Shown one piece after another: positions 28,670-40,328 of a DNA stretch of 53,533 nt. The translations under genes were made by a program, and so were the position numbers. How positions within the stretch are numbered: position 1 is the stretch's first letter; every line of letters begins with the position of its first letter. Source of the DNA: Rhodospirillaceae bacterium (GTDB taxonomy: Bacteria > Pseudomonadota > Alphaproteobacteria > Rhodospirillales > Casp-alpha2); the NCBI GenBank assembly GCA_002696205.1, contig NZRL01000134.1, positions 1 through 53,533 on the forward strand, in the 5' to 3' direction. Under the pieces are notes generated by a model. That model had not been told where the DNA came from and did no database searches. It saw nothing but the letters and a program-made list of their open reading frames with translations.

Positions 28670-28909
28670 ATGAGCTGGCAGACCGGTATCGCCATTTATT
28701 TCGTGGTCTGGTGGATCGCGCTGTTCGCTGTCCTGCCCTGGGGCGTGAAGCGCATCGATCCCGCCGACCTGAACCCCGGGGAAGACCCGGGCGCTCCGGC
28801 GAAGCCGCGAATCCTGCTGAAGTTCTTCGCGACCTCGGTGCTGTCGGGCGTGATCTTCGGGATCATCTATTGGATTCACGAATCCGGCCTGGTCACGTTC
28901 CGCCAATAG
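28670..28909 (+). CDS. DUF1467 family small membrane protein
   Basis: A 79-residue protein with two membrane helices (about 6-24 and 55-74) around a Pro/Asp-rich loop (RIDPADLNPGEDPGAPAKP). The N-terminal FVVWWIALFAVLPWGV is the DUF1467 hallmark. The function of the family is unknown. ATG 28670 lies 4 bases after the mce stop and has GGAGCAGG upstream, so it is co-translated with mce; an eight-codon longer start at 28646 overlaps mce and is less likely. Confidence 0.88.
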   Translation: MSWQTGIAIYFVVWWIALFAVLPWGVKRIDPADLNPGEDPGAPAKPRILLKFFATSVLSGVIFGIIYWIHESGLVTFRQ

Positions 28910-28961
28910 GCGGGCCAGTCGGCGGGTAGGGCATCGCGGCGATGGCCAGCGGTTCAGCTTC

Positions 28962-28976
28962 GTAAAGTGACTTTAC
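28962..28976. promoter_or_regulatory. 15-bp perfect palindrome, operator-like
   Basis: GTAAAGT-G-ACTTTAC is a perfect inverted repeat of two 7-base arms around one base, in the long gap between the DUF1467 gene and proS. Its AT-rich character contrasts with the surroundings. Size and symmetry fit a dimeric regulator's operator. The cognate protein is unknown and no adjacent regulator gene exists in the window. Confidence 0.4.
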
Positions 28977-29005
28977 ATTCCGGTTGAAAACCCAAGGAAT
29001 TCAGC

Positions 29006-29038
29006 CAAAAATAAAGGCAAGACCGAAACGGTCTTGCC
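29006..29038 (-). terminator. Rho-independent terminator on the minus strand
   Basis: Read on the minus strand, GGCAAGACCG (29038-29029), loop TTT and CGGTCTTGCC (29025-29016) form a perfect 10-bp stem followed by TTTATTTTT (29015-29007). The T-rich tail is only on the minus side; on the plus strand the hairpin is followed by CCTGATAAG. No annotated minus-strand gene lies to its right, which suggests an unannotated transcript. Confidence 0.75.
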
Positions 29039-29162
29039 CCTGATAAGTCCGATATTCCTAAAAGCTAACGCGCCGTTTCGGCTGCCGCTTGTTATTGCTT
29101 CTTACTTTTTTCCTCCCAAAACCCGGGCCCAGTCTGACCGGCAGGTGCTCATCATTGTGAGC
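29006..29162 (-). ncRNA. Candidate small RNA, about 155 nt
   Basis: The stretch lies between a minus-strand promoter-like pair (GTGACC-N17-TATGAT, 29197-29169) and the strong minus-strand terminator at 29038-29006. It falls in the 519-base gap between the DUF1467 gene and proS, is AT-richer than the flanks, and has no convincing ORF. It contains a purine-rich run GGGAGGAAAAAAGTAAGAAG. This is inferred from signals only; the family is not recognised. Confidence 0.35.
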
Positions 29163-29168
29163 GCGGGC

Positions 29169-29197
29169 ATCATACTATCGGCCTCTGCGTTGGTCAC
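29169..29197 (-). promoter_or_regulatory. Candidate minus-strand promoter for the small RNA
   Basis: On the minus strand GTGACC (29197-29192) and TATGAT (29174-29169) are separated by 17 bases. The -10 is a five-of-six match and the -35 four of six. Expected start near 29162. The rest of the gap, 29200-29428, shows no gene I can support. Confidence 0.3.
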
Positions 29198-29428
29198 CCT
29201 TTTTCTCGCAATTCGTCGGAAGATTATTCGTTCATCTCCTGACGCGGAACGAAGGCGCTTCGCCCGTGGACAACGCCCCGTGGACAGGAGTAAGAGCTTG
29301 CCATAAGTTTCTCACCGGTTTTCCTGGGGTCCCGGTCCGATTTCCGTCCCCTTCGTCAATTCAACCGGCGCCGGTCGGATCGGTATTCCGGGCGTCGGAT
29401 CATCAACACAGGAAGGATGCCCGAGCGC

Positions 29429-30742
29429 ATGCGCCTCTCCCGCTTTTTCATGCCGACCTTGAAGGAAACGCCCGCCGACGCGCAAATCGCGTCGCACCGG
29501 CTGATGCTGCGCGCCGGAATGGTGCGGCAATCCTCGGCGGGGATCTATTCATGGCTGCCGCTGGGCTACCGCGTGCTCAAGAAGATCACCCGCATCGTCG
29601 AGGAAGAGCAGGACGCCATCGGCTGCCAGCAGGTCCTGATGCCCACCATCCAGCCGGCGGAATTGTGGAAGCAAAGCGGGCGCTATGACGCTTACGGTCC
29701 GGAGATGCTGCGCATTACCGACCGGCACGACCGGGACATGCTCTACGGCCCGACGAACGAGGAACAGATCACCCAGATTTTTTCCGAAGCCGTACGGTCC
29801 TACCGGGATCTGCCGAAGATGCTCTACCACATCCAATGGAAATTCCGCGACGAAGTGCGGCCCCGGTTCGGGGTCATGCGCGGGCGCGAGTTCCTGATGA
29901 AGGACGCCTATTCCTTCGACCTGGATTATGAAAGTGCCAGAAAGTCTTATCAGAAGCATTTCGTCTCATATCTGAAGACGTATGAGCGCCTGGGCCTGAA
30001 GGCGATTCCCATGGCGGCGGATACCGGGCCCATCGGCGGCGACATGAGCCACGAGTTCCTGATCCTTGCTGACACGGGCGAAAGCGAGATCGCCTGCCAT
30101 AAGGATTTTCTCGACAACGACTGGCTCGACGGCGTCGACATGGACGGCGACCTGGAAAGCGTGGTCAACACCTTTACCGCCAAATACGCGGCGACCGACG
30201 AGAAGCGCGATCCGGCGGCCGAGGCCGCGTTAGGCGACGATCTGATCACCGCGCGCGGGATCGAGGTCGGCCATATCTTCTATTTCGGCACCAAGTATTC
30301 CGAGCCCATGGGCGCCAAGGTCGCCGGGCCGGACGGCCAGGAAGTGGTCTGCGAGATGGGGTCCTACGGCATCGGCGTGTCGCGTCTGGTCGGTGCCATC
30401 ATCGAGGCGTCGCATGACGAGAACGGCATTATCTGGCCCGAGCCCGTGGCGCCGTTCCGTGTCGGCCTGATCAATCTGCGCTCCGGCGACGAGAAGTGCG
30501 ATGCCGCCTGCCAGGGCATGTACGACCAATTGACCGCCGCCGGGCAGGACGTGCTGTACGACGACCGCGAGGAGCGGGCGGGCGGCAAGTTCGCCGACAT
30601 GGACCTGATCGGGCTCCCCTGGCAGTTGATTGCGGGCCCCCGCGGCCTTGAAAAAGACATGGTCGAGCTGAAAAACCGTAAGACCGGCGAACGCGAGGAA
30701 ATCAGCCGTGAATCGGCGCTCGCGCGGCTGACCGGCGGCTGA
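29429..30742 (+). CDS. proS: Proline--tRNA ligase (short form without editing insertion)
   Basis: Class II synthetase that charges tRNA-Pro. Class II motifs are visible: motif 2 [17 protein letters not shown] and motif 3 [14 protein letters not shown]. Motifs 2 and 3 are joined by a short linker, so the roughly 180-residue INS editing domain of E. coli ProRS is missing. At 437 residues this is the alphaproteobacterial type. Enzymes of this type mischarge alanine and depend on a separate ProXp-ala-like deacylase; none is in the window. ATG 29429 ([13 protein letters not shown]) is the family start. GGAAGG at 29411-29416 directly abuts the other ATG, at 29417, and is 12 bases from this one, so spacing is unusual either way. 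Confidence 0.95.
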
Positions 30743-40202: not shown

Positions 40203-40328
40203 ACCCGCCCCATATCGCACGCGGGGATGCGGCGGCTCGTGCAAATTCACGGGTTTTGCCGCTCCGGTGTTCGGTCATGGGGCCGAATGACACCCTGCGG
40301 AGGCATAACCGGAGAAAGGTACTCTATC

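Follow-up and report, generated by a model that had tools for sequence, protein, structure and literature searches.

The window analysed here, i.e., the whole stretch of 53,533 nucleotides, belongs to a draft genome (G000; 208 contigs, 83.9% complete). Between a DUF1467 gene and proS, it carries on its minus strand a predicted small RNA (sRNA) gene. The features of this locus are the following:

28670..28909, plus strand: DUF1467 gene, convergent neighbour (PF07330, 89.2 bits)
29005..29162, minus strand: predicted sRNA transcript of ~155 nt (start placed from the -10 box, end from the T-tail)
29005..29162, minus strand: conserved sRNA block, present in 7 of 8 genomes of the genus
29006-29172, minus strand: sRNA match to covariance model R2 (the window genome belongs to the R2 training set)
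29007..29015, minus strand: T-rich tail TTTATTTTT (read in the sequence; T-rich in 7/7 genus copies)
29013..29041, minus strand: intrinsic terminator stem-loop (scan, and covariation in 23 relatives)
29042..29108, minus strand: A-rich linker and variable middle region (alignments)
29109..29129, minus strand: core GGCCCGGGUUUUGGGAGGAAA, proposed pairing site for the sRNA αR8 (most conserved element of the family; predicted pairing with the genome's own αR8)
29129..29141, minus strand: short hairpin CCGGU-CAG-ACUGG, immediately 5' of the core (one MFE fold)
29147..29162, minus strand: 5' hairpin GCUCA/UGAGC (sequence and alignment; GCUCG/CGAGC in relatives)
29169..29197, minus strand: sigma70-like promoter GTGACC-N17-TATGAT (scan; boxes conserved within the genus)
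29417..30742, plus strand: proS, divergent neighbour (NCBIfam proline--tRNA ligase, 728 bits)

Some of these elements had been pointed out in a first-pass annotation of the sequence. The perfect 10-bp hairpin that it described (GGCAAGACCG-TTT-CGGTCTTGCC, minus strand, 29038-29016, followed by the T-rich tail) is present, and our terminator scan lengthened its stem to 13 pairs (29041-29013). The promoter boxes are also found where it had placed them, at 29197-29169 on the minus strand, about 155 bases upstream of the hairpin, and they match the consensus at 9 of 12 positions. Over 5 kb, three promoter-like sites were counted, against 0.9 +/- 1.1 in shuffles, and three terminator-like sites, against 4.3 +/- 2.1. 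The hairpin and the boxes alone are modest signals; it is the genome comparison that raises both above chance. Two further statements of the annotation hold in part. The interval is AT-richer than most flanking 100-base windows (GC of 0.45-0.57 inside, against 0.54-0.70), but the GC content is 0.51-0.54 immediately to the right and 0.47 at 29900. It had also been called non-coding, but a 90-aa plus-strand frame (29034-29306) crosses it; no Pfam domain matches this frame at E<=0.1, and its sequence beyond the sRNA is not conserved. The frame includes a possible transmembrane stretch.

The stability of the full-length sRNA fold is unremarkable (z -1.53; 12 of 200 shuffles at least as stable). 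The 5' hairpin is present in one of two MFE folds and absent from the other, and its column pair 10/17 is GC in 5, AU in 3, and unpaired in 2 of the 10 aligned sequences. The short hairpin at 29129..29141 is missing from the second MFE fold, i.e., the one that contains the 5' hairpin, and its putative equivalents elsewhere were recognised by eye. No Rfam family matches the sRNA interval at gathering level and, at E<=10 over 28850-29450, only ceN109 and mir-193 appear, both unrelated and far under their cut-off. Elsewhere in the window, the rpsB sRNA family (RF01815) matches 40216-40326 on the plus strand, with 42.2 bits, barely above the cut-off of 40.

Conservation of the sRNA from the genus to the class

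We searched 61 genomes, that of the window among them, with 28910-29450 by BLAST and retrieved the block in seven of the eight genomes of the genus; in the eighth (G004), the contig begins inside proS, so that the sRNA site is not assembled. All seven genomes having the site carry GTGACC, with a -10 box that reads TATGAT in two of them and TAAGAT in five, and all seven carry the stem with its T-rich tail. The first-pass annotation had named the loss of this hairpin and tail in close relatives as what would speak against its minus-strand sRNA, and both are kept. The genus alignment spans the -35 and -10 boxes, the body, the stem and the T-tail, and similarity drops off on either side. Indeed, in the five more distant members of the genus, the sRNA is 84-86% identical to that of the window, and identity falls to 10-20% in the left gap and 43-52% in the right one; the coding neighbours reach 78-81% (DUF1467), 82-84% (mce) and 86-87% (proS, over its first 300 bases), and the promoter stretch of 39 bp reaches 64-72%. 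A conserved block flanked by diverged gaps means that the boundaries of conservation match those of a transcription unit, and the interval beside proS is very probably a genuine sRNA gene. Another copy very near those of the genus lies on a contig labelled Hyphomonadaceae bacterium BRH_c29 (L060:1494-1603), which may be mis-binned or mislabelled.

Beyond the genus, the core GCCYGGGTTTTGGGAGG and a terminator of the GGCAAGACC/GGTCTTGCC type recur in other genera and families of the order. A pattern search across the order returned 19 places, 16 of them sRNA-like (including one, in G036, with no clear terminator); the three others (L040, L052 and L055) were judged by eye to be chance occurrences. 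The annotation had also proposed a covariance search of relatives. We built two models, R1 from 15 sequences and R2 from 23, and they match the sRNA gene in many alphaproteobacterial families: R1 in 48 of 385 genomes at E<=0.001 and R2 in 111 of 385 at E<=1e-4, both counts including false matches, namely bare terminators and the antisense of αR8 genes. For R2, 62 loci were inspected, namely the 30 best and another 32 chosen among lower-ranking matches. In 50 of them, proS, DUF1467, mce or tag lies within the 2-3 kb examined (DUF1467 in 38, mce in 34, proS in 24 and tag in 19), two have other markers only (L152 and L165), and ten are without any marker. Eight of these ten (L172, L173, L175, L178, L182, L183, L184 and L190) are false matches lying antisense to an αR8 gene, with suhB above its cut-off on the opposite strand. 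R2 recognises the antisense of αR8 genes, and the αR8 model RF00519 the antisense of the sRNA, because the core is the reverse complement of αR8. As for the last two, L189 appears by eye to be another such false match, and L164 resembles L157 from the same family. No core was seen in L150.

In these loci, mce is a methylmalonyl-CoA epimerase gene (NCBIfam, 176 bits); Pfam identifies tag as a methyladenine glycosylase (131 bits), its score being under NCBIfam's own tag cut-off, and RNaseJ is named from sub-threshold NCBIfam matches. In a common arrangement, RNaseJ-mce-DUF1467-(tag) runs convergently towards the sRNA, on whose far side lies proS or a different gene. The tag-like gene that many relatives (19/62 loci) carry between DUF1467 and the sRNA is absent from the window (28909-29416).

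The signals of transcription are also maintained at this scale. In the terminator, 98.1% of the cells are paired across 23 sequences (0/500 shuffles as high; slid controls 24-49%), and 6 of 9 pairs have changed on both sides (1/500 shuffles). Of 52 family loci, 40 are preceded by a TGAC-N17..19-TAnnnT promoter, against 0.5 +/- 0.7 in mononucleotide shuffles (maximum 4). At gathering level, Rfam gave no match on 10 and then 15 further family loci or candidates. Taken together, the sRNA is very probably conserved in many alphaproteobacteria. In one genus (g14; L024-L027 and L039), the sRNA has very different middle regions, and two of its genomes (G064 and G027) have a terminator that is recoded yet still paired.

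Relation to the αr9 family

The position of the gene recalls αr9 (RF02343), an sRNA of Rhizobiales that we take to be SmrC9 of Sinorhizobium meliloti, both being 149 long. In the published extracts available, SmelC289, sra32 and smrC9 are a single gene, on the minus strand in a table (PMC7143759). SmrC9 is described there as a 149-nt RNA between SMc01933 and proS (PMC2780559), and all but one of the SmelC289 relatives adjoin proS (PMC3927594). According to the passages on sra32 in PMC2245857, its promoter in S. meliloti reads gaTGAC-n17-CTA.AT, it is transcribed away from proS (orientation < < >), it was detected by Northern blot in S. meliloti, A. tumefaciens and R. etli, and fliM and smc01800 (cytochrome c oxidase) are predicted as targets that it would reach by a region other than the core considered here. 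SmrC9 is bound to Hfq in S. meliloti by CoIP, as stated in a part of PMC2848018. In the portions of this literature that deal with αr9/SmrC9, targets are predicted and none is demonstrated.

The window gene shares with αr9 its place beside proS and its transcription away from it, a sigma70 promoter of the TGAC-n17-18-TAnnnT type, a length of about 150 nt, a GGCAAG-type terminator and a core like the AAGUCUUGGGAGGA of the Rfam consensus. On the other hand, RF02343 has no match in the window at its cut-off, nor at E<=10 over 28850-29450, and the window core reads CCCGGGUUUUGGGAGG; moreover, SMc01933 of S. meliloti is listed in the direction of the sRNA, whereas the DUF1467 gene of the window converges on it. 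Thus, apart from the Rfam score and the direction of the far-side gene, the window gene has the αr9 features that can be checked in a sequence. A bridge between the two is provided by G654, a genome outside the R2 training set, in which RF02343 aligns over its full length with 35.3 bits (cut-off 45), at the same place and on the same strand as R2 (E 2.1e-9). Because of synteny and of this linking model, with its one sub-threshold bridge, the window gene appears to be a divergent ortholog of αr9, and not a member by Rfam's definition.

Complementarity and covariation with αR8

A point missing from the first-pass annotation is the nature of the core. This element is complementary to the anti-Shine-Dalgarno core of αR8 (suhB/MmgR/SisA, RF00519). 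The window genome encodes both an αR8 (G000:C44:341-418, minus strand, 52.4 bits for a cut-off of 41) and Hfq (109.9 bits). RF00519 scores above its cut-off in 24 of 27 genomes in one search and in 27 of 31 in another; two of the latter (G622 and G431) were dropped since their sole αR8 matches are sRNA antisense, leaving 25 of 31 with an independent αR8, and in G495, G414, G589 and G540 no αR8 was found at E<=1e-6. In the genus of the window, the αR8 RNA (L110:341-440, minus strand) has a 1-nt insertion in its core compared with most other αR8 RNAs, and the upstream side of this core bears a further CCUCCCA.

Two things expected of a sponge are found, i.e., complementarity to the αR8 core of the same genome and compensatory changes that keep the pairing, the latter uncorrected for phylogeny and with exceptions. 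The duplexes were compared over the core only; the program ignores internal structure, so full-length energies were left unused, and the sRNA core is partly paired in the predicted fold. For the window, the core and the core of its own αR8 are predicted to pair at -45.3 kcal/mol, against -20.2 +/- 3.5 for mononucleotide-shuffled cores (0/1000 as low). Across genomes, 50 of 52 could be paired, two (G666 and G572) being left out because their αR8 locus is without TTTCCTCC; the top αR8 copy was used for most genomes and two copies for a few. Three of the 50 (G463, G667 and G410) have none of proS, DUF1467, mce and tag in the examined flanks. When families were permuted (50 genomes, 26 families, a test that ignores deep phylogeny), own-pair duplexes reached a family average of -51.0 kcal/mol, against -46.3 +/- 0.63, with 0/2000 permutations as low. 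For 26 of the 50 genomes, seven of which belong to one genus, at most 5% of the αR8 of other families pair as well. Others have no clear preference for their own αR8, the fraction of other families' αR8 at least as good being 0.94 in G649, 0.90 in G062, 0.67 in G058, 0.58 in G253, 0.51 in G076, 0.50 in G475, 0.47 in G479, 0.41 in G692 and 0.38 in G036. Hence, the sRNA and αR8 co-vary across 26 families, with several genomes showing no preference.

This covariation can be followed position by position (αR8 base first, 50 pairs). Position 13 is C-G in 22, U-A in 15, U-G in 13 and C-A in none; position 12 is U-A in 32, U-G in 10 and C-G in 8. At position 9, A-U occurs in 34, G-C in 5 and G-U in 3, the 8 mismatches all belonging to family f1, window included. 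Position 7 is U-A in 30, A-U in 12 and U-G in 4 (4 mismatches), and position 14 is G-C in 33, A-U in 4 and G-U in 4 (9 mismatches, 8 of them in f1, with a shifted register). Fisher p values, uncorrected for ancestry, are 2e-5 for position 13, 7e-5 for position 9 (without the 8 mismatched f1 pairs) and 5e-9 for position 7 (without one C-U pair). In the lineage of the window, the swap at position 7 associates αR8 CCUCCCA with UGGGAGG, in place of CCUCCCU with AGGGAGG; in its genus, the register is shifted by the 1-nt insertion in αR8, so that the duplex contains a small internal loop. Changes on both sides are also seen inside single families (αR8/sRNA): in f46, G331 has CUCGGG/CCCGAG, G463 and G640 have CUUGGG/CCCAAG, and G561 has UAGAC/GUCUA; in f81, G489 and G584 have CUCAGG/CCUGAG.

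Such a complementarity could nevertheless be inherited. In several lineages, the 5' part of the sRNA (A-run, hairpin, core, CGCC) mirrors the 3' half of αR8, and an αr9-type sRNA might act mainly on mRNAs directly, as the targets predicted for sra32 through another part of the RNA would suggest (PMC2245857, in the passages on targets), the match to αR8 being left over from an inverted duplication or amounting to minor cross-talk. We consider this unlikely: a relic would drift, and instead the changes in αR8 have their counterparts in the sRNA within f46, f81 and f90, as well as in f1 and in G046. It is very improbable that the transcript is a small mRNA for a peptide of 17-32 aa (MTSTCRSDWARVLGGKKQEAIIKRQPSNGAKL in four relatives, MMSTCRSDWARVLGGKK in the window and G003) or a dual-function RNA. 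A stop-free frame does run through the core in 7/7 genus copies, six of which share the position of an ATG, but this ATG is lost in G006, early stops occur in G000 and G003, the 32-aa form has no Pfam match, and no consistent start codon follows GGGAGG in the other family members examined by eye; the peptide reading was rejected on these grounds. There is an equally slight chance that the real gene lies on the plus strand, as an αR8-like copy overlapping the site. Indeed, on the strand antisense to the sRNA, the suhB model exceeds its cut-off in G622 (54.9 bits), G619 (49.1), G656 (47.9) and G431 (45.5), but the plus strand of the window has no suhB match, the conserved promoter and the T-tailed, covarying terminator are oriented along the minus strand, and sra32 of S. 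meliloti runs away from proS (PMC2245857) and on the minus strand (PMC7143759) in the extracts cited above. Finally, the idea that there is no sRNA, the terminator being a stray one and the promoter a chance match amid converging and diverging genes, agrees with terminator counts near the shuffled expectation when taken alone, but is made extremely improbable by the conservation of the block, the class-wide family and the promoter at 40/52 loci.

A candidate sponge of αR8 and its meaning

Sponges of sRNAs are already known as a kind. Sections of PMC12559287 present an experimentally shown one in Caulobacter, CrfA, whose G/A-rich stem-loop pairs with the αR8 10-mer UUUCCUCCCU of SisA-D; with the aid of Hfq, CrfA lowers SisA-D levels and thereby frees the mRNA targets of SisA on carbon starvation, effects that are reported to be lost in an αR8 deletion. 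The same sections mention QrrX, a sponge of the Vibrio Qrr sRNAs, to which the window RNA can be likened by description, in other organisms, as a stand-alone sRNA antagonising an sRNA family.

As far as its sequence tells, we infer that the window RNA works like CrfA, with a G/A-rich element that would pair with the same αR8 10-mer and an inactivation that would be aided by Hfq. This likeness concerns the proposed mode of action. In family f93, which we take to be Caulobacteraceae-like since its CtrA is closest to the Caulobacter sequence (91% in G668), the full-length R2 family was found in 0 of 40 genomes at E<=0.01, with only the 3' part matched in 6 of 40, and GGGAGG is absent from the sRNA strand (opposite proS) of the DUF1467-proS gap in all five f93 genomes examined. 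CrfA may have moved and diverged, or may be an independent sponge. From αR8 itself, the sRNA differs by its opposite polarity (GGGAGG, against CCUCCC in αR8), its terminator and its locus, even if its 5' half resembles an inverted αR8 in several relatives; RF00519 has no match on either strand of the window.

In the mechanism that we propose, transcription of the sRNA would start at its own sigma70-type promoter, proceed leftward and stop at its intrinsic terminator. Its core, reading GGGAGGAAA, would mimic a strong Shine-Dalgarno region and, because αR8 carries an anti-Shine-Dalgarno element, would in effect be a decoy ribosome-binding site. Its pairing with the UUUCCUCCCA... core of αR8, which would probably take place on Hfq, would sequester or destabilise αR8 and thus relieve mRNAs from silencing by αR8 at their ribosome-binding sites. 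The inducing signal may be carbon limitation, by analogy with CrfA. We therefore favour, as likely, an αr9 ortholog of ~155 nt with its own promoter and terminator, acting as a Shine-Dalgarno-mimicking sponge of αR8, because of the complementarity, the trans-covariation, the presence of αR8 and Hfq in the same genome and the CrfA precedent.

An inverted copy of αR8 as ancestor would explain both the mirrored 5' part and the suhB scores on the opposite strand. We suggest, tentatively and as a possibility short of an even chance, that αR8 and αr9 are an ancient pair present in much of the class, in which the antagonist arose from such a copy, settled at mce-DUF1467-proS and has co-evolved with αR8 since. 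If so, CrfA would be a relocated descendant or an independent replacement in Caulobacter. Two suhB matches opposite an αr9-like sRNA (L166:1430-1509, minus strand, 49.1 bits, and L163:1410-1482, minus strand, 47.9 bits) are probable antisense artefacts, and some suhB annotations opposite the sRNA gene may be artefacts as well.

The αr9 family was known, with unproven targets; what is new here is this divergent branch of it, along with the covariation in trans over 26 families and the role that we propose for αr9. In the extracts found of the open-licence PMC literature on MmgR, CrfA, SisA, sponges and SmrC9/sra32/SmelC289, there is no statement that αr9 antagonises αR8; the parts of PMC8844928 that mention both MmgR and sponges do not make this link, and a literature search with the core letters returned unrelated papers only.

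αR8-type RNAs (MmgR/SisA) silence metabolic genes, and the sRNA is most likely a decoy that soaks up αR8. In a passage of PMC12559287, αR8 is said to occur in all Alphaproteobacteria except Rickettsiales. If the sponge reading is true, the long-known αr9/SmrC9, with targets so far predicted, would gain a function open to immediate testing in S. meliloti and, if many lineages keep such an antagonist, silencing by αR8 would be widely under the control of a two-RNA switch, beyond Caulobacter.
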